The translations under genes were made by a program, and so were the position numbers. A DNA stretch of 64,000 bases from Pseudomonadota bacterium. Its GTDB lineage: Bacteria; Pseudomonadota; Gammaproteobacteria; Burkholderiales; Thiobacillaceae. Under the pieces are notes generated by a model. That model was not told where the DNA came from and ran no database searches. It was given only the letters and a program-made list of their open reading frames with translations. The stretch lies in contig JAKADC010000006.1 of NCBI GenBank assembly GCA_021820845.1, positions 62,001 through 126,000 of the forward strand, written 5' to 3'. This document shows, piece after piece, positions 32,658 to 40,522 of this stretch (position 1 is the stretch's first letter; each line of letters begins with the position of its first letter).

Positions 32658-33310
32658 GGCCGGGCCGTCTGCGCGGCCGGAGGCCGGATGCTGCCGGCGG
32701 ACGCCTCGTCCCGGCAGACGACCAGGGCCGGGTCGGCGCCGTGGTCGATCAGGATGCGTTTGACCCGCAGCTGCCACAGGCGGCCGAAAGTCTCTCGCTC
32801 CGCGTCGCTGGCCGTTCCACCGAGCACCTTGGGCATCAGCGCCTGCAGTTCCGGCGGCGAGGGGACGATTTCGGGATGGTAGGCGACCGCGACGCTGGCG
32901 CCCGTGTCGAGCCGGGTGAAGCGAACCTCGGCGCCGGTTCCGGACGCGAACGCCAGCAGGTTGCGGCGGCTGAAACGTCCCGCGAGGCCCTTGAAACCGC
33001 CTTCTCCCGCCGCCCCGGTCAGCATTCCGATCACGGCTGCGATGACGCCGGTGACACCCTCAGCCTGGGGCGTGCCGAGGTCGACCCGCACGCCGCCGCG
33101 CTCCGCGATCGCGCCCGGATAGAGCCGGTCGAGCGCCTTCAGCGTCATCAGGTAGGCGCCCGCGACCGTGGGACAGGAATGCCCGGCGAGTTTGACCACG
33201 TCGAGGTAGCCGTACTCGATGCGGCCACCGCCGGCAGCGCCGAGAAATTCGGCAAGCGGGTCGTACAGGGTGATGCGGGCGACGGCATCGAAAAAGGCGG
33301 GATGGCTCAT
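32654..33310 (-). CDS. FmdE-family protein (formylmethanofuran dehydrogenase subunit E-like)
   Basis: A 218-residue protein with the FmdE core YLDVVKLAGHSCPTVAGAYL, including the conserved His and Cys. The family name comes from methanogens, but no methanofuran genes are present, so the role must differ; bacterial relatives lie beside denitrification and NO genes. It is the last gene of the DUF2249 - NnrS-like - FmdE cassette, joined to the previous gene by an ATGA overlap. Confidence 0.75.
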   Translation of the reverse strand: MSHPAFFDAVARITLYDPLAEFLGAAGGGRIEYGYLDVVKLAGHSCPTVAGAYLMTLKALDRLYPGAIAERGGVRVDLGTPQAEGVTGVIAAVIGMLTGAAGEGGFKGLAGRFSRRNLLAFASGTGAEVRFTRLDTGASVAVAYHPEIVPSPPELQALMPKVLGGTASDAERETFGRLWQLRVKRILIDHGADPALVVCRDEASAGSIRPPAAQTARP

Positions 33311-34434
33311 GGTGTGTGCTCCTTCTGCAAAATCGTGGCGTGGACCAGGGCTGCGACGGCCTGCACGATGAACCATAGCAAGGTCGCCGCGCCGAGCAGC
33401 AGGCCCCATTCGCGTCCGGTTCCCGCCACGGCGCCGCCGATGCAGAACAGCACGGCGCGGACGCCGCCATAGCGGCCGAGCGCGCCGCGCAGGCGCGCGT
33501 GCCAGGCGTTTTGGACGCCGGGACGCAGCCAGACCGGCAAGAGCTGGCTGGCCGCGCCGGTGACCAGCGGCGGCAGGAAGCCGGCGACGTAGATCCACAC
33601 GGGTACCAGACCGACAGGGGAGAGCGCGGCCGCGCCGTAAAGCAGGCTGAGGACGAATCCGGCGAGCGCGGCGGCGAGCAACGGGGCCGCGCCGTGCAAC
33701 CTGAAGACCTCGGTCCGATAAAGCCGCAGCCAGTTCGCTGCAAGGCGCACCGGCGGGATCGCCCACAAGACGGCCCCGACGGCGGCGAGCGGAGCGAACC
33801 ATGCGGCTCCGGCCGCGACCAGCAGGGTGCCGGCGACGGCGAGCGGAAAATCGCGACGGAGTCGCAGGGCCGCGCCCGGATCCGGCTTGCCGGTGACCGT
33901 GGGCATCAACACCGTGAGGGTGCCGAAGGCAGTCATTCCGATGAATCCGAGCGTGTTGAGATGAAGATGCAGGCGCCGCAGGGCCGGCCACTGCTCCGGC
34001 CAGACGGCGCTCGCGAGGATCGCGAGCAGGGCGAACACGAGACACGCCAGCGCAGCCTGGTACCACGCGAGGCCGGGGTGCGGCCGCCCGAGCATGCCGA
34101 TGCGACGCCGCCAGCTCCAGGCCAGCAACGCGGCGGCAGCCGTCGCCGCGACGAATGCGCCCGCGTGACGTCCCCAGGGCATGCCGGGAAGGCTGAGCGC
34201 GGCGACGACCAGAACGCCGCCTGCGAGCGCCAGAACGGGAACCGCGCCCAAGCGGGCGGGCGCGCCGCGCGTGCGCGTCAGCACCGGAATGAAGTGGCCC
34301 ATGGCGCCGAATATCAGCGGCATGGCGCCAACGGCTAGGATCAGATGGAGGACGCTCGCGCGTCCGGCGGCGGGCGAACCGAGGAGCGCGGCGGTGAATG
34401 CCGCCAGGGCGATGAATACCAGCGCCGGCAGCAC
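33307..34434 (-). CDS. NnrS-like multi-spanning membrane protein, cassette 1
   Basis: A 375-residue protein with about eleven hydrophobic helices and His-bearing segments such as FGAMGHFIPVLTR and LHLHLNTLGFIGM, as in NnrS and related haem-copper proteins that protect against nitrosative stress. The start is best read as GTG 34434, 8 bp after the DUF2249 stop. A longer upstream frame is an artefact of the opposite region. A larger relative is in cassette 2 at 36396. Confidence 0.7.
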   Translation of the reverse strand: MLPALVFIALAAFTAALLGSPAAGRASVLHLILAVGAMPLIFGAMGHFIPVLTRTRGAPARLGAVPVLALAGGVLVVAALSLPGMPWGRHAGAFVAATAAAALLAWSWRRRIGMLGRPHPGLAWYQAALACLVFALLAILASAVWPEQWPALRRLHLHLNTLGFIGMTAFGTLTVLMPTVTGKPDPGAALRLRRDFPLAVAGTLLVAAGAAWFAPLAAVGAVLWAIPPVRLAANWLRLYRTEVFRLHGAAPLLAAALAGFVLSLLYGAAALSPVGLVPVWIYVAGFLPPLVTGAASQLLPVWLRPGVQNAWHARLRGALGRYGGVRAVLFCIGGAVAGTGREWGLLLGAATLLWFIVQAVAALVHATILQKEHTP

Positions 34435-34442
34435 CGCGCGAC

Positions 34443-34697
34443 TCAGTTGCGGATGAAGTCGATCACGATTTCGCCCGGTTCGCGGCGCAGGTACTGGATT
34501 TCGACCACTTCGCCGTAGCGATTGCGGAGCTGGTCGAGCAGCGGCAGCGGGTCGTGATCGTTGACGAAGCGCATCCGCTCGCCCGGGGTCAGCGCGTCGA
34601 GCGCGCCGAAGATGGCCGCGTGGCGGAAACGCTTGGCGATTCCACGTGCGTCGAACGGATAGACCTGGTCCTGGCGAAGGTGAAGGTGGGCAGTCAT
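34443..34697 (-). CDS. DUF2249-domain protein, cassette 1
   Basis: An 84-residue protein of the SirA-like DUF2249 fold (FDARGIAKRFRHAAIFGALDAL, GERMRFVNDHDPLPLL). DUF2249 proteins often accompany hemerythrins and NO-related enzymes. First gene of a cassette with an NnrS-like protein and FmdE. An NsrR-like palindrome lies 16 bp upstream of the start. Confidence 0.85.
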   Translation of the reverse strand: MTAHLHLRQDQVYPFDARGIAKRFRHAAIFGALDALTPGERMRFVNDHDPLPLLDQLRNRYGEVVEIQYLRREPGEIVIDFIRN

Positions 34698-34838: not shown

Positions 34839-35264
34839 CTAAGGTTTGTCGGGATCCAGCTCGTCCGCGCCGGGCACGCGGAAGATGCCTTGCAGGCGGA
34901 GCAGTTCCTCGCGGTGCTGGGCCACCAGCTCGTCGAGCAGCGCGCTTCCCTCGCGCGTCAGATGCACCTCCACCGAGCGGCGGTCCGCGCGTCCGGTACG
35001 GCGCTTCACCAGCCCCAGCTTCTCGCATCGCGAGATCAGCGACACGGCCCCGTGATGGTGCGCCTGAAGCCGCTCCGCCAGCTCGCCGACGGTCGCCCAT
35101 TCGCGGCCGGGAAATCCGCGTATGTGCAGCAGCAGCTGATATTGAAGGTGGGTGATGCCGTGCTCGTGCGTCACTTCTTCGCTGAAGCGCAGGAAGCGGC
35201 GGAGCTGGTAACGGAACTGGGAAAGCGCTTCGATTTCCTTCTTGCTCAGGCGGGTGGCTGTCAT
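34839..35264 (-). CDS. MarR-family transcriptional regulator
   Basis: A 141-residue winged-helix protein with ITHLQYQLLLHIRGFPGREW, recognition helix AERLQAHHHGAVSLISRC, wing KRRTGRADRRSVEVHLT. It is divergent from the yip1-dsrC pair, and a perfect 29-bp palindrome lies between them, so it likely represses itself and those genes. Ligand unknown. The 34736-34838 gap upstream of DUF2249 shows no gene. Confidence 0.88.
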   Translation of the reverse strand: MTATRLSKKEIEALSQFRYQLRRFLRFSEEVTHEHGITHLQYQLLLHIRGFPGREWATVGELAERLQAHHHGAVSLISRCEKLGLVKRRTGRADRRSVEVHLTREGSALLDELVAQHREELLRLQGIFRVPGADELDPDKP

Positions 35265-35288: not shown

Positions 35289-35317
35289 GACTTTATATCA
35301 CAGTATGATATAAAGTC
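35289..35317. promoter_or_regulatory. Perfect 12-bp-arm palindrome between marR and yip1
   Basis: GACTTTATATCA, five bases, TGATATAAAGTC. It lies 25 bp upstream of the MarR start and 82 bp upstream of the yip1 start, and its TTATAT/TATAAA cores can serve as -10 boxes in both directions. This is the expected form of a MarR operator. Confidence 0.75.
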
Positions 35318-35398: not shown

Positions 35399-35968
35399 AT
35401 GAGTATCCTGCATATTCCCAAGCTGTTCACGTCGTCCCACGAAGGGTGGGATGCATTTTCCGAAACCCGGCCGTCGCCGCTTCGGCTCTTCGTCGTGCTG
35501 GCGTTGCCGTGCTCGCTGATCCCGCCGCTGATGCTCGAGTACGCGGGCCACCACGTCGGCGCCGCCATGTTCCCGGATACCCCCGGCATGGCGTGGAGCA
35601 TGGCCGCATTCTTCTTCCTGCTGGCGGAGTGGCTGACGGTGCCTTTCATGGGCTGGGCGATCGCGTCGATCGCGCGCAGCAAGGGGATCGCGACCGACCA
35701 GCACGACGCGTTCGCGCTGGCCGCCGTCGCGCCGATCCCCCTGTGGCTGTCGTCGCTGGTCCTCTTCCACGACCAGATCCTGCTGATCATGGCCGGGCTC
35801 GTCGTCGGTCTGGCCGCCTCGGTGATCCTGATCTTTCGCGGCGTGCAGAACATCCTGAAGGTGCGGGAAGAGCTCGTCGCGATCGATGTCGCCTACACCG
35901 TCACCGCGCTCGGACTTGTCGCCTGGGTGACTCTGGTCATGCTGGGGCTCCTTCCGGTCCTTGCCTGA
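35399..35968 (+). CDS. Yip1-domain membrane protein
   Basis: A 189-residue protein with an N-terminal amphipathic stretch (HIPKLFTSSHEGWDAFS) and five membrane helices, as in bacterial Yip1-family proteins. Start 35399 follows ggagag. It is co-directional with the DsrC-like gene 57 bp downstream. No molecular role is known. Confidence 0.78.
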   Translation: MSILHIPKLFTSSHEGWDAFSETRPSPLRLFVVLALPCSLIPPLMLEYAGHHVGAAMFPDTPGMAWSMAAFFFLLAEWLTVPFMGWAIASIARSKGIATDQHDAFALAAVAPIPLWLSSLVLFHDQILLIMAGLVVGLAASVILIFRGVQNILKVREELVAIDVAYTVTALGLVAWVTLVMLGLLPVLA

Positions 35969-36025
35969 CGCCGTTTTCTGGTCCGCCCGGCGGATCGCGC
36001 CGGGCATTTCTGAGGAGGTTGAACG

Positions 36026-36358
36026 ATGGATGCAGATGTGAAGGTTCCTTTTCCCACCCTCGACGAAGAGGGGTATCTCGTCGAACCCGGTGAGTGGAAC
36101 GAAGCAATCGCGGAGCGGCTCGCGCGATCTGAGAATGTCACGCTCACCGACGCGCACTGGGACGTCATCCGTTTCATGCGCGACTATTACGAAGAACACC
36201 AGATCGCACCCGATGCGCGCTACGTGATCAAGCACCTGTCGAACCGTCTCGGATCCGACGCGCGCAACGCGCTCTTCAGGCTGTTTGCCTACGGCTACGT
36301 CAAGCAGGCATGCAAGATCGCCGGGATGAAGCGCCCGCGCGCGTGGAGCACGGGCTGA
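36026..36358 (+). CDS. DsrC/TusE-family protein lacking the terminal cysteine
   Basis: A 110-residue DsrC-fold protein (FPTLDEEGYLVEPGEWNEAIA; LTDAHWDVIRFMRDYYEEH; APDARYVIKHL). True DsrC has two redox Cys in its C-terminal arm and TusE keeps only the penultimate one. Here the arm reads YVKQACKIAGMKRPRAWSTG: the internal Cys is kept and the terminal one is replaced, the reverse of TusE. Sulfur carriage by trisulfide formation is therefore unlikely, and a regulatory or single-thiol role is possible. Ribosome site gaggagg. Confidence 0.85.
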   Translation: MDADVKVPFPTLDEEGYLVEPGEWNEAIAERLARSENVTLTDAHWDVIRFMRDYYEEHQIAPDARYVIKHLSNRLGSDARNALFRLFAYGYVKQACKIAGMKRPRAWSTG

Positions 36359-36395: not shown

Positions 36396-37676
36396 TCAAC
36401 GATAGCGTCCGCCGTGGCGCGAGAAGCGGCGCACCGCCGTTAACAGATTGATCCCCAGCAGCACCGCCGAGAGCGCCAGCACGAGGCCCGCCGCGCGAAG
36501 CAGGTGCGGCCAGGCGAGCCCCGCCACGACCAGCATGCATGCGACGAGGTGGACCAGGAACTGCAAGCGCGCCCAGCGCGGCGCGATCATGTCCTTCATG
36601 GTGGGAATCGTGCCGGCACGTGCCTGCAGCTGCGCCTGGAGGTGAAACCAGGCGAGGAAGGGCACGATCTTGTAGAGCATGCCGTTCACCACGCTGACCC
36701 CGAATCCCCCGATGAACAGCACACCCAGCGACAAGGGGTAGGCGGTGCTTGCCGCCCAGGCCGGGACGAACTGCGCATACAGCCAGACGAGCACGCACGC
36801 GATCAGGCTCGCCATCCCGAGTCGCCAGAAATCGAGCGTGACGTCGGGCAGCTTGCGGCGGCGGCGGGATTGCAGCCACAGCGTGACGAGCGCGAACACC
36901 AGGATGGCGCCGGCGAGGCCCGCGTCGATCGCGGTCGCGAGGGCGTCGGGCAGGGCCGGCGTCGCGGCATGGAGCAGCAGCAGCGCGAACAGGACGGCCG
37001 CGAGCCAGCGACTCAGCCAGGGCGGATAGGCCGGCGTGATCTGGAACATCGGCACCACCTGGTAGGCGACGCCGATCACCAGCAGCAGCACCCAGCCGAG
37101 CAGACCGAAAGCTGCGTGCGCGCCGGCCCCCGTCTGGATGGCCGCCGGAAGCCGCCCGCCGGCATGCACCAGCGCGAGCACCATCCCCAGCAGCACCGTG
37201 ATGCTGAGTCCGGCGAGGGCGAACCGCATGCCGCTCACCGTCACGCTGGCGACGGCGTGCATGAGCGCGGTGCCGGCCACGCCGAGAAACACGATGAAGC
37301 TGCCGCCGAGCAGAAGGACGGCGACGCCGAACGCCGCCGGCCGGGAAGTGAGGAAGCCCGTCATCAGCGCCGCCGTGCCGGCGACGAGCGAAACGTGAGC
37401 CAGGCCCGCCACGAGCCGGGGCGAGGGCAGGCTTGCACCCGCCACGACCGGCAGCATCTGCATCATCGCCCCCAGCATCGACATGGCGAGAAATCCCAGC
37501 GTGAGCGCGTGGGTGAGGGCGAAGGCCTGCGGCGTCCAGCGCGAAGCCAGCGCGTCGGGCGACGACGCGATCAGGACGGCCGCCGCGAGCAGAAACAGCG
37601 GGGCAGTCAGGAAAAAGCGCAGCGGCGCCGCGAACGGCGGCGCCTGCTCGAAGGAAAGACCGGCAGGTTGTCCCAT
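36396..37676 (-). CDS. NnrS-like multi-spanning membrane protein, cassette 2
   Basis: A 426-residue protein with about twelve hydrophobic helices and His/Met-rich membrane motifs (LTHALTLGFLAMSMLGAMMQ, VAYQVVPMFQITPAYP, MLYKIVPFLAWFHLQ), resembling NnrS and haem-copper-type proteins of NO metabolism. Third in the hemerythrin - DUF2249 - NnrS-like cassette. It is a relative of, but clearly longer than, the protein at 33307. Confidence 0.72.
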   Translation of the reverse strand: MGQPAGLSFEQAPPFAAPLRFFLTAPLFLLAAAVLIASSPDALASRWTPQAFALTHALTLGFLAMSMLGAMMQMLPVVAGASLPSPRLVAGLAHVSLVAGTAALMTGFLTSRPAAFGVAVLLLGGSFIVFLGVAGTALMHAVASVTVSGMRFALAGLSITVLLGMVLALVHAGGRLPAAIQTGAGAHAAFGLLGWVLLLVIGVAYQVVPMFQITPAYPPWLSRWLAAVLFALLLLHAATPALPDALATAIDAGLAGAILVFALVTLWLQSRRRRKLPDVTLDFWRLGMASLIACVLVWLYAQFVPAWAASTAYPLSLGVLFIGGFGVSVVNGMLYKIVPFLAWFHLQAQLQARAGTIPTMKDMIAPRWARLQFLVHLVACMLVVAGLAWPHLLRAAGLVLALSAVLLGINLLTAVRRFSRHGGRYR

Positions 37677-37687
37677 ATGGAAGTGCG

Positions 37688-37930
37688 CTACGCGCTCGCC
37701 TCCGCCTGCCGAATCAGGATGACGTAGCTGCCGTCGGGTTCCATCCGCGTCTCGTGGCGGTAGCCGCGCTCGGCGAGGATGGCGTACAGCGGAAACGGCT
37801 CGCGGTGCAGCAGCATCCGGACGGACTCGCCGGGGCGCAGTTCGTCCAGCGCCTCCATGACCTTTTCCATCGGATCCGGCGGCTCCATCCCGCGGGCGTC
37901 GACGACCCTTTCCCGGGCGGCGGCGCTCAC
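37688..37930 (-). CDS. DUF2249-domain protein, cassette 2
   Basis: An 80-residue SirA-like DUF2249 protein (VVDARGMEPPDPMEKVMEALDEL, RMLLHREPFPLYAIL). It starts at a GTG that overlaps the hemerythrin stop (GTGA), so it is translationally coupled. Paralogue of the protein at 34443. Confidence 0.85.
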   Translation of the reverse strand: MSAAARERVVDARGMEPPDPMEKVMEALDELRPGESVRMLLHREPFPLYAILAERGYRHETRMEPDGSYVILIRQAEASA

Positions 37931-38364
37931 GAGAAGGTTTGCATGGAGCGGATCAGGTCGTCGCGTTCGCCGCTCAACACCTGGTCGGACATGGGGTACA
38001 GCATGTTTTCTTCTTTCAGGTTGTGCTGCTGCATCAGCATGTTGAGCGTTTCCGACAGGCCGAGATAGCCACCGTGGTTGGCCGCCTCGACCGCGCTCGC
38101 CATATTTTGCAGCAGGCTGCGCATCTGTTCGTGTTCCATGCGCATGACCTGGGTCGGTCCCGCGCTCATGCCGGTACGGTTCTCGAAAGCGGGAAACAGC
38201 AGTTCTTCCTCCATCGCCAGATGGTGCGCCAGCGCCGTCCGGAACTGCTCGAAGAGATCGCGGGCGCGCGCCCAGTCCTTTTGCGCCGCCGCCGTTTCGG
38301 CCGAGGCGAACAGGTCGTCGCAGGCACGATGGTCGTTGCCGAGAAAATCCAGAATCGTGCTCAT
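37927..38364 (-). CDS. Hemerythrin HHE-domain protein
   Basis: A 145-residue four-helix protein with the di-iron ligands of the HHE fold: GNDHRACDDLF, HHLAMEEELLFP, MEHEQM and MQQHNLKEENMLYP. Related proteins (YtfE/RIC, DnrN) protect Fe-S clusters from NO or bind O2. The start MSTILDFLGNDH at 38364 matches the family. An NsrR-like site is 14 bp upstream. First gene of cassette 2. Confidence 0.88.
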   Translation of the reverse strand: MSTILDFLGNDHRACDDLFASAETAAAQKDWARARDLFEQFRTALAHHLAMEEELLFPAFENRTGMSAGPTQVMRMEHEQMRSLLQNMASAVEAANHGGYLGLSETLNMLMQQHNLKEENMLYPMSDQVLSGERDDLIRSMQTFS

Positions 38365-38377
38365 GTCATGGCTCCAT

Positions 38378-38400
38378 AAGATGATGAAAAAATACATGTT
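38378..38400 (-). promoter_or_regulatory. NsrR-like operator upstream of the hemerythrin gene
   Basis: On the minus strand AACATGTATTT, one base, TTCATCATCTT. I count 16 of 22 matches to the NsrR consensus, with one near-perfect half site. The position, 14 bp before the start, mirrors the site in front of cassette 1. Confidence 0.48.
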
Positions 38401-38506: not shown

Positions 38507-40522
38507 ATGAACTCTGTGATAGCAGGTATGCCGCGCGAAGTCATCAAGCGCGACGGGCAGCGCGCGGCCTTCGACGCCGCGAAGATACGTTCGGCCCTAT
38601 TGCGGGCCGGCCAGGCGAGCGGCGAATTCGGCGCGGACGAGGCGGACTTGCTCACCGCGCAGGTGATGAAGGTCCTGATCCACAGCTTCCGCAATGCGCC
38701 GCCGGACATCGAGCGCATCCAGGACGTGGTCGAGCAGAGCCTGATCGCCGCCAATCACCTCGCGACGGCGCGCGCCTACATCGCCTATCGCGAAAGCCAC
38801 AAGAAGCTGCGCGAGGACCGCAAGACGGTGGTGGACGTGGAAGCGTCGATCAACGAATACCTGTCGCGCCAGGACTGGCGCGTCAACGCCAACGCCAACC
38901 AGGGCTACAGCCTGGGCGGACTGATCCTCAACGTCTCCGGCAAGGTGGTCGCCAACTACTGGCTCAACCACGTCTACTCGCCCGAGCTCGGGGCGGCGCA
39001 TCGCGACGGCTCGATCCACATCCACGATCTCGACATGCTGGCGGGCTACTGCGCCGGCTGGTCGCTGCGCACGCTGCTGCACGAAGGCCTCAACGGCGTG
39101 CCGGGCAAGGTCGAGGCAGGCCCGCCCAAGCACATGTCGTCCGCGGTCGGGCAGATCGTCAACTTCCTCGGCACGCTGCAGAACGAATGGGCCGGCGCGC
39201 AGGCGTTCTCGTCGTTCGATACCTACATGGCGCCGTTCATCCGCCGCGACAACATGAGCTACGGCGAGGTGCGCCAGTGCATCCAGGAGCTGATCTACAA
39301 CCTCAACGTGCCGTCGCGCTGGGGCACGCAGACGCCGTTCACCAACCTGACCTTCGACTGGACCTGCCCTGAGGACCTGCGCGAGCAGATCCCGGTCATC
39401 GCGGGCGAGGAGATGCCGTTTGCCTACGGCGAGTTGCAGGCCGAGATGGACATGATCAACCGTGCCTACATAGAGGTGATGACGACCGGCGACGCGAAGG
39501 GCCGCGTCTTCACGTTCCCCATCCCGACCTACAACATGACGCCCGACTTCCCCTGGGAGTCGGAGAACGCCGGGCGCCTGTTCGCGATGACCGCGCGCTA
39601 CGGCCTGCCGTACTTCCAGAACTTCATCAATTCCGAGATGAAGCCGAACCACATCCGTTCGATGTGCTGCCGCCTGCAGCTCGACCTCAGGGAATTGCTA
39701 AAGCGCGGCAACGGCCTGTTCGGCTCGGCCGAGCAGACCGGCTCGGTCGGCGTGGTGACGGTCAACTGCGCGCGTCTCGGCTACGAGTACAAGGGTGACG
39801 AGGCCGGACTCTTCCGCCGCCTCGACGCGCTGCTCGAGATGGGGCGCAACGGCCTCGAGATCAAGCGCAAGGAAATCCAGCGCCTGATGGACAATGGCTT
39901 GTTCCCCTACACCAAGCGCTACCTCGGCACGCTGCGCAACCACTTCTCGACGCTCGGGGTCAACGGCATCAACGAGATGATCCGCAACTTCACCGCGGAC
40001 GAGCACGACATCACCACCGAATGGGGCCATGCTTTCGCGCTGCGCCTGCTCGACCACATCCGCGCCCGCATCGCGGCGTTCCAGGAAGAGACGGGCCACA
40101 TGTACAACCTGGAAGCGACGCCCGCGGAAGGCACCACTTACCGCTTCGCCAAGGAGGACCGCAAGCGTTACCCGGACATCCTGCAGGCGGGCACCGCCGA
40201 CACGCCGTACTACACCAACTCGTCGCAGCTTCCGGTGGGCTTCACCGACGACGCGTTCGAGGCGCTCGAGCGGCAGGACGACCTGCAGCGCAAATACACC
40301 GGCGGCACCGTCCTGCATCTCTACATGTCCGAGCACATCTCGTCGGCGGAAGCGTGCAAGAAGCTGGTGCGCCGCGCGCTGGAGGGATTCCGGCTGCCCT
40401 ACATCACCATCACGCCGACTTTCTCGATTTGTCCCAAGCATGGCTACCTCGCCGGCGAGCACGAGTTCTGCCCCAAGTGCGACGAGGAAGCCCTGTCCCG
40501 CAAGCGTGCCGTTGCCGCTTAA
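38507..40522 (+). CDS. nrdD: Class III ribonucleotide reductase large chain without glycyl-radical loop
   Basis: A 671-residue NrdD: ATP-cone at about residues 8-100 (VIKRDGQRAAFDAAKIRSAL), the ten-stranded barrel (SIHIHDLDMLAGYCAGW, NLNVPSRWGTQTPFTNLTFD, SMCCRLQLDL) and a C-terminal zinc ribbon (ICPKHGYLAGEHEFCPKC). Normal NrdD continues from the ribbon into RVxGY, the glycyl-radical site; this chain stops 12 residues after the ribbon and has no such motif. The missing loop is encoded by the next gene. It reduces nucleotides to deoxynucleotides without oxygen. Confidence 0.93.
   Translation: MNSVIAGMPREVIKRDGQRAAFDAAKIRSALLRAGQASGEFGADEADLLTAQVMKVLIHSFRNAPPDIERIQDVVEQSLIAANHLATARAYIAYRESHKKLREDRKTVVDVEASINEYLSRQDWRVNANANQGYSLGGLILNVSGKVVANYWLNHVYSPELGAAHRDGSIHIHDLDMLAGYCAGWSLRTLLHEGLNGVPGKVEAGPPKHMSSAVGQIVNFLGTLQNEWAGAQAFSSFDTYMAPFIRRDNMSYGEVRQCIQELIYNLNVPSRWGTQTPFTNLTFDWTCPEDLREQIPVIAGEEMPFAYGELQAEMDMINRAYIEVMTTGDAKGRVFTFPIPTYNMTPDFPWESENAGRLFAMTARYGLPYFQNFINSEMKPNHIRSMCCRLQLDLRELLKRGNGLFGSAEQTGSVGVVTVNCARLGYEYKGDEAGLFRRLDALLEMGRNGLEIKRKEIQRLMDNGLFPYTKRYLGTLRNHFSTLGVNGINEMIRNFTADEHDITTEWGHAFALRLLDHIRARIAAFQEETGHMYNLEATPAEGTTYRFAKEDRKRYPDILQAGTADTPYYTNSSQLPVGFTDDAFEALERQDDLQRKYTGGTVLHLYMSEHISSAEACKKLVRRALEGFRLPYITITPTFSICPKHGYLAGEHEFCPKCDEEALSRKRAVAA

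Follow-up and report, generated by a model that had tools for sequence, protein, structure and literature searches.

DsrC in the strict sense is recognized by a pair of cysteines in its C-terminal arm (CysB and the penultimate CysA), by the place of its gene as the dsrC of the dsr operon, and by its occurrence with dsrAB. RspA, another protein of the DsrC family, was reportedly proposed by Venceslau et al. in 2014 as a regulator for which the cysteines are not needed. In A. vinosum, sulfur is bound and received by DsrC only at the penultimate cysteine (Cys111), and CysB is dispensable for sulfur binding, according to the available excerpt of that study (PMC3397948). Multiple DsrC-family genes per genome are already known, as stated in the accessible parts of three reports (PMC3368242, for A. 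vinosum; PMC10892978; PMC7787665). Among the phage DsrC sequences counted in the accessible part of another report, one has only the first cysteine (PMC8190135).

The gene described here lies in a 64,000-nucleotide stretch of DNA from a member of the Thiobacillaceae (the window, taken as the whole stretch analysed), and its features are collected in Table 1. It is confirmed to encode a DsrC-fold protein with CysB kept and a tryptophan in the place of CysA, hereafter the W-tail protein. The preliminary description of this DNA had claimed that the internal cysteine is kept and the penultimate one absent, which Cys96 and Trp107 bear out. No description of a Trp-tailed DsrC class was found in the literature searched, one in Venceslau et al. 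2014 being possible.

Table 1. Coordinates of the W-tail gene and its neighbours in the window
Feature	Position	Strand	Evidence or remark
DUF2249 protein	34443..34697	-	PF10006 94.5 bits
Divergent MarR-family regulator, invariant Cys80	34839..35264	-	PF12802 50.2 bits
Putative operator, perfect 12-bp inverted repeat GACTTTATATCA-CAGTA-TGATATAAAGTC	35289..35317	.	between marR and yip1
Yip1-domain membrane protein	35399..35968	+	PF04893 47.5 bits; start inferred from a relative in L327 beginning MSIL
Ribosome-binding site GAGGAGG	36012..36018	+	sequence read directly
W-tail DsrC-family gene, 110 aa	36026..36358	+	PF04358 113.3 bits; TIGR03342 104.2 bits; start codon ATG
Tail codons of the W-tail gene	36311..36358	+
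Cys96 (CysB)	36311-36313	+
Trp107, at the CysA position	36344-36346	+
Stop codon	36356-36358	+
Membrane protein without Pfam match, convergent neighbour	36396..37676	-	kept in most Thiobacillus MarR-type loci
DUF2249/TusA-like protein	37688..37930	-	PF10006 74.3 bits
Hemerythrin-domain protein	37927..38397	-	PF01814 84.6 bits
Anaerobic ribonucleotide reductase nrdD	38507..40522	+	NF006126 1139 bits

The W tail: fold, conservation and spread

Both profile scores of the window protein (Table 1) exceed the curated cut-offs (24.9 bits for PF04358; 53.5 bits for TIGR03342), which makes it a member of the DsrC superfamily. The protein ends in CKIAGMKRPRAWSTG (in fuller form QACKIAGMKRPRAWSTG), while the DsrC of the same genome (L001) ends in QACKIAGLPKPTGCI. 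Eleven residues after the shared cysteine, the genome's own DsrC has a cysteine and the window protein has Trp107, which is followed by STG and leaves two more residues past this point than in DsrC; the CysB and penultimate CysA pair of DsrC in the strict sense is thus lacking. The AlphaFold2 model of the protein, built from 33 sequences, has a mean pLDDT of 83.8, and its best PDB match is 1sau (Z 15.2, rmsd 1.8, 102 aligned), other matches being 2v4j_C, the DsrC bound to DsrAB (Z 14.5), and A. vinosum DsrC 1yx3 (Z 14.0, 39% identity). The fold is that of DsrC, as eight DsrC-family chains were matched at Z 10.3-15.2 and the strong PDB matches were all of this family; the PDB search was also run with Foldseek.

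The W-tail subfamily is defined here by C[KR]IAGM..PR.WSTG at the exact C-terminal end, a pattern to which the window gene conforms. Two peptide patterns taken from the N-terminus, and thus free of selection on the tail, brought up 149 relatives in genome contigs, and the unbiased count of conservation comes from the best 80 of these 149. The tail was conserved in 80/80 of these loci (PRAWSTG in 71, PRGWSTG in seven, and PRSWSTG and PRNWSTG in one each), and in every one Trp takes the place of CysA, exactly 11 residues after CysB. The record titles of the best 80 of 149 name Thiobacillus, Gallionella, Sideroxydans, Hydrogenophilales, Sulfuricella, and Proteobacteria. One of the 80 loci, L092 (8001-8319), carries a W-tail gene whose frame shifts before the tail, the tail itself being intact, and in L323 (461-775) a W-tail gene is interrupted by an in-frame stop, each in a single assembly.

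A DNA pattern of the tail was found in 45/300 genomes of the same order, in 32/369 genomes of the class sample (31/365 outside the order), and in 6/398 genomes of the phylum sample, three of them outside the class. The pattern fixes Cys, the first Gly, Met/Leu, Pro, Trp, the first Ser-codon letters, and the last Gly; for the 155 distinct full-length W-tail genes, the constancy of these positions is therefore partly by construction. These genes vary synonymously at most codons, with an almost constant protein tail; a stop codon immediately following the final Gly, and the Arg after Pro, neither of which is fixed by the pattern, are present in 155/155. The pattern also misses variants (L222, L228, and L244 were found through PF04358 only), and genome G050 was scored W-negative although it carries a W tail (L222). 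A phage origin was rejected, as the W-tail pattern was not found in viral contigs; the matches in phage records were all below 60% identity.

DsrC paralogues and the link to dissimilatory sulfite reductase

The 2.85-Mb genome of the window (G000) has ten PF04358 matches (L001 to L010), nine of them over the cut-off, on contigs C18, C3, C1, C6, C16, C20, and C13, with C-terminal tails of many kinds. The genome's own dsrC (L001) adjoins dsrAB on C18, and the window gene, on C6, is not the dsrC of a dsr operon. L003 is a second W-tail copy, 68% identical and with the same tail; L005 (1134-1481 of L014, G000:C16), placed in a LysR-HPP context, brings the W-tail group in this genome to three members and has lost the tail, ending in CRIAGMRKPLKLMLDV. 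L006, whose tail is GKGGY, is the close upstream neighbour of dsrA and is read in the opposite direction. Across 40 genomes from the order, DsrC-family matches were found in 30/30 with dsrA and 0/10 without, eight of the latter ten (all but G004 and G005) having been covered by the dsrA search.

The fixed tail classes extracted are CKIAGLPKPTGC[IV] (DsrC), two TGCV kinds, GKGGY, FGSV, TKGEH, and the W tail. The window protein had been called the mirror case of TusE, which holds for its cysteine pattern and not otherwise. In the examined genomes, the DsrC superfamily has at least seven tail classes, of which the W tail is one and several others are likewise without CysA. In a tree of 146 rows built from the body only (tail removed), nine tail groups need 12 changes against a shuffled mean of 95; this tree holds 143/232 distinct rows and three PDB fragments, with W rows thinned from 112 to 25 and two rows dropped, and the smallest supported set around the window protein comprises 25 W rows together with four that carry other tails. 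A tail-free tree of 67 rows, which left out long or odd rows (L009, L010, L077, L078, L092, L213, and L251), needs 8 changes for the nine groups, the minimum possible, and places the window protein within a set of 22 W-tail rows and L005 (support 96/87), with four TusE rows outside. By their tail-free sequences, the W-tail proteins are one supported group outside TusE and DsrC, so that the phylogeny of paralogues, called for as a check in the preliminary description, does not put them inside true TusE. TusE identity was also rejected by the equivalog model, on which the window protein scored 82.8 bits against a cut-off of 191, and the protein lacks the penultimate cysteine of TusE. Two DsrC domains, L213 and L251, occur in one open frame of 272 aa at G028:C1:389741-390460, apparently a tandem fusion.

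W-tail proteins occur in many sulfur-oxidising bacteria, and their genes are shown to be nearly restricted to genomes with dissimilatory sulfite reductase. In the order sample, dsrA (TIGR02064) was found in 45/45 W-tail genomes (42 over the cut-off and three as large fragments, E 1e-84 or better) vs. 16/35 pattern-negative genomes (Fisher p 3.5e-9). In the class sample, it was found in 29/31 W-tail genomes (28 over the cut-off and one large fragment) vs. 11/32 pattern-negative ones (p 9e-7), the two remaining W-tail genomes having a short dsrA fragment at a contig end in one and no convincing match in the other. The W-negative genomes were hand-picked, 35/255 pattern-negative genomes in the order, mostly from families of the positives, and 32/337 in the class. 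Occurrence with dsrAB, as for DsrC in the strict sense, is thus common to the W-tail genomes. The W tail is not essential to DsrAB, since dsrA is present in 16/35 and 11/32 of the pattern-negative genomes, of which at least G050 has a W tail (L222).

Only three W-tail loci lie beside dsrAB. In G630 (L319), dsrA and dsrB are followed by the W-tail gene after a 163-nt gap, this being the second dsrA-dsrB pair of the genome; in G354 (L309), the order is a second dsrA, dsrB, a 231-aa ORF, the W-tail gene, and a DUF2249-like ORF. The two genomes are of different families and have two dsrA genes each; canonical dsrC was not found by tblastn in either stretch, and the DsrA of both pairs retains the two Cys motifs of the DsrA of the window's genome (CVGxARC and CxNDC). 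In G132 (L166), the W-tail gene is oriented divergently from the start of a dsr operon in which a canonical dsrC is present. In G014, the dsrA genes on C13 and C59 are interrupted at one common point (profile 1-127 and 160-399), which may reflect an insertion or a shared frameshift.

Genomic contexts and the MarR module

The contexts of W-tail genes were surveyed in 113 distinct loci, drawn from 120. A divergent MarR gene stands just upstream in 37/113; in 20/113, the W-tail gene comes after narI or the FAD oxidoreductase of a narGHJI operon, and 15 of these 20 have nnrS downstream; in 25/113, a LysR gene is divergent, with an HPP-family membrane gene downstream in 17. These three contexts are mutually exclusive, no locus of the 113 having two. 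T. thioparus DSM 505 has one W-tail gene of the window type and a second linked to narGHJI (L021 and L046). The remaining loci comprise 10 with only nnrS or HPP downstream and 21 with none. Outside the order, the 31 loci examined gave seven nar-type matches (one weak) and nine LysR matches (not all adjacent), and the window-type MarR was absent from all 31.

At the genome level, narG over the cut-off was found in 18/45 W-tail genomes vs. 5/16 dsrA-bearing pattern-negative ones (Fisher p 0.76). Nitrate respiration thus forms the background of certain copies without being a condition, and at this level it is not supported as a general role. FNR-type boxes of the strict pattern TTGAN-N4-NTCAA were found neither in the window nor in L011. 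The gene had earlier been assigned to a MarR/NO-linked region, with co-occurrence with marR named as a check; the MarR part of that claim stands for 37/113 loci and not for the narGHJI (0/20) or LysR (0/25) loci, while the nitrogen-oxide link is local and the narG linkage not significant. MarR-specific signalling cannot be the general function, since MarR is absent from the 20 narGHJI and 25 LysR loci.

In the window, marR and the yip1 and W-tail genes (35399-36358, +) diverge across the inverted repeat, and the latter two, with a gap of 57 nt, probably share one transcript. The operator core TATCA-N5-TGATA (at least 9/10 matches) was found in 37/41 distinct marR upstream regions, against a mean of 0.2 and a maximum of 2 in shuffles, and in 0/20 narGHJI and 0/25 LysR loci. 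The only perfect operator copy in the genome is the window site; the further core sites are one with one mismatch and two weaker ones. The one-mismatch site (G000:C16:5452-5468) lies directly before a CLC chloride-channel ORF.

Cys80, within SRCEKLGL, is the only conserved cysteine of this MarR (47/47 sequences) and is also present in the orthologues of L326 and L327. In the comparison of 24/30 aligned loci (three orthologues, namely, the window's own, L326, and L327, and 21 distant homologues), this position is Leu, Ile, or Met in 21/21 of the distant ones. So the MarR regulator, too, has gained an invariant thiol, which is the best support for the earlier idea of a thiol sensor, though in the regulator and confined to one context. 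G037 and G080 have MarR orthologues that are not adjoined by a DsrC-family gene; in G080, a yip1-like gene stands next to marR. The MarR-Yip1-DsrC genes are flanked on both sides by a pair made up of a DUF2249 gene and a gene for a Pfam-less membrane protein (33307-34697 and 36396-37930), and DUF2249-like genes are again found close to W-tail genes in L296, L309, and L143.

Possible functions and comparison with known systems

The carrying step of DsrC, as known from the excerpted A. vinosum study, takes place only at the penultimate cysteine (PMC3397948) and is therefore impossible for a protein without CysA. This supports the earlier view that the gene product is not a sulfur carrier, and control or blockage of the sulfur pathway is the likelier role of the W-tail protein. 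The reading preferred here, though tentatively and at less than even odds, is that of a non-carrier paralogue that may dock on one of the partners of DsrC, with DsrAB as the likeliest, and gate it. With the DsrC body and arm kept, the protein could dock as DsrC does, and the tryptophan, exactly in the position of the CysA that would bring sulfur to the siroheme, would occupy or gate the site with no sulfur delivered. The affinity may be set by a mixed disulfide or persulfide on CysB, and the dose of the protein would be set locally by a Cys-bearing MarR with its own operator, by LysR, or by the nitrate reductase operon. Sulfur oxidation might thereby be turned down, or the enzyme protected, under certain redox or nitrogen-oxide states, the effect being to block, protect, or activate. 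DsrAB is named as the likely partner mainly because three loci adjoin dsr genes. Most loci lie elsewhere, which counts against gating, as do the last three residues of the AlphaFold2 model, whose pLDDT below 50 leaves the tail unplaced; contexts with so many regulators would agree equally well with a role in DNA binding.

A sharper form of the earlier thiol-sensor idea joins the two genes into a pair, in which the lone CysB would exchange sulfur or a disulfide with MarR Cys80 and lift repression. This is unlikely. The invariance of Cys80 in the orthologues, its replacement in the distant homologues, and the coincidence of the only perfect operator with the window site speak for it; the adjacent MarR and operator are, however, absent from the narGHJI and LysR contexts, and in G037 and G080 the MarR orthologue stands without a DsrC-family neighbour.

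In a wider and rather improbable extension of the gating proposal, the DsrC superfamily of sulfur oxidisers would be a set of adaptors with one body and fixed C-terminal codes. The W-tail member, produced on demand through the Cys80 MarR, LysR, or the nitrate operon, would act as a sulfur-inert plug in the channel of DsrAB and would shut down dissimilatory sulfur oxidation or shield the siroheme from nitrite and NO.

Two further readings are doubtful. A Cys-independent DNA-binding regulator of the RspA kind would agree with the helical, partly helix-turn-helix-like body, with contexts rich in regulators, and with weak structural matches to PerR and LexA that rank after those to DsrC; these weak matches (Z 5.1 or less) are within chance range, and the invariant CysB would be superfluous to such a protein. 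A CysB-only sulfur carrier for a partner of the nitrate-respiration genes, about equally doubtful, would account for the invariance of CysB and for the pyridine nucleotide-disulfide oxidoreductase gene directly upstream in the narGHJI context, but it leaves the invariant Trp and the fixed end unexplained and is at odds with the excerpted A. vinosum findings on the penultimate cysteine and the dispensable CysB (PMC3397948). That the gene is a degenerate, frameshifted, or damaged DsrC or an annotation artefact has next to no probability and was rejected, for although CysA is lost, the tail is common to 80/80 of the best 80 of 149 relatives and to the second copy in the genome, varies synonymously at most codons, and is distributed class-wide, so that no frameshift, the event first named as able to overturn the claim, explains it.

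If the W-tail protein does gate DsrAB, it would be a regulator joining dissimilatory sulfur oxidation to nitrate respiration. Surveys can count all DsrC-family genes as carriers, while the tail sorts these genes into classes, one of which is strictly kept yet unable to carry sulfur by the known mechanism.

Among the known systems, RspA is likewise a DsrC-family protein and a proposed regulator, and differs in reportedly having no need of the cysteines, CysB being invariant in the W-tail protein. The MarR-family thiol switches resemble the window MarR in being DNA-binding regulators with a conserved cysteine near the recognition helix; the copper-sensitive cysteine of E. coli MarR would presumably fall about two residues beyond the window MarR cysteine in SRCEKLGL. 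The phage DsrC-like proteins (the dsrC_1 group of SUP05 phages) share the missing second C-terminal cysteine, as described in the available part of the source (PMC4164917). TusE of the E. coli type is also matched by PF04358 and TIGR03342 and has one of the two cysteines only, but it retains the penultimate one, and E. coli TusE (L360) has Thr at the CysB place. DsrC itself (A. vinosum 1yx3; A. fulgidus 1sau) shares with the W-tail protein the fold, CysB with the KIAG motif, and the occurrence with dsrA, whereas the W-tail protein has Trp for CysA followed by STG, stands outside the dsrC role in the dsr operon, forms a separate tree group, and is two residues shorter before the LF motif than the DsrC of its own genome.
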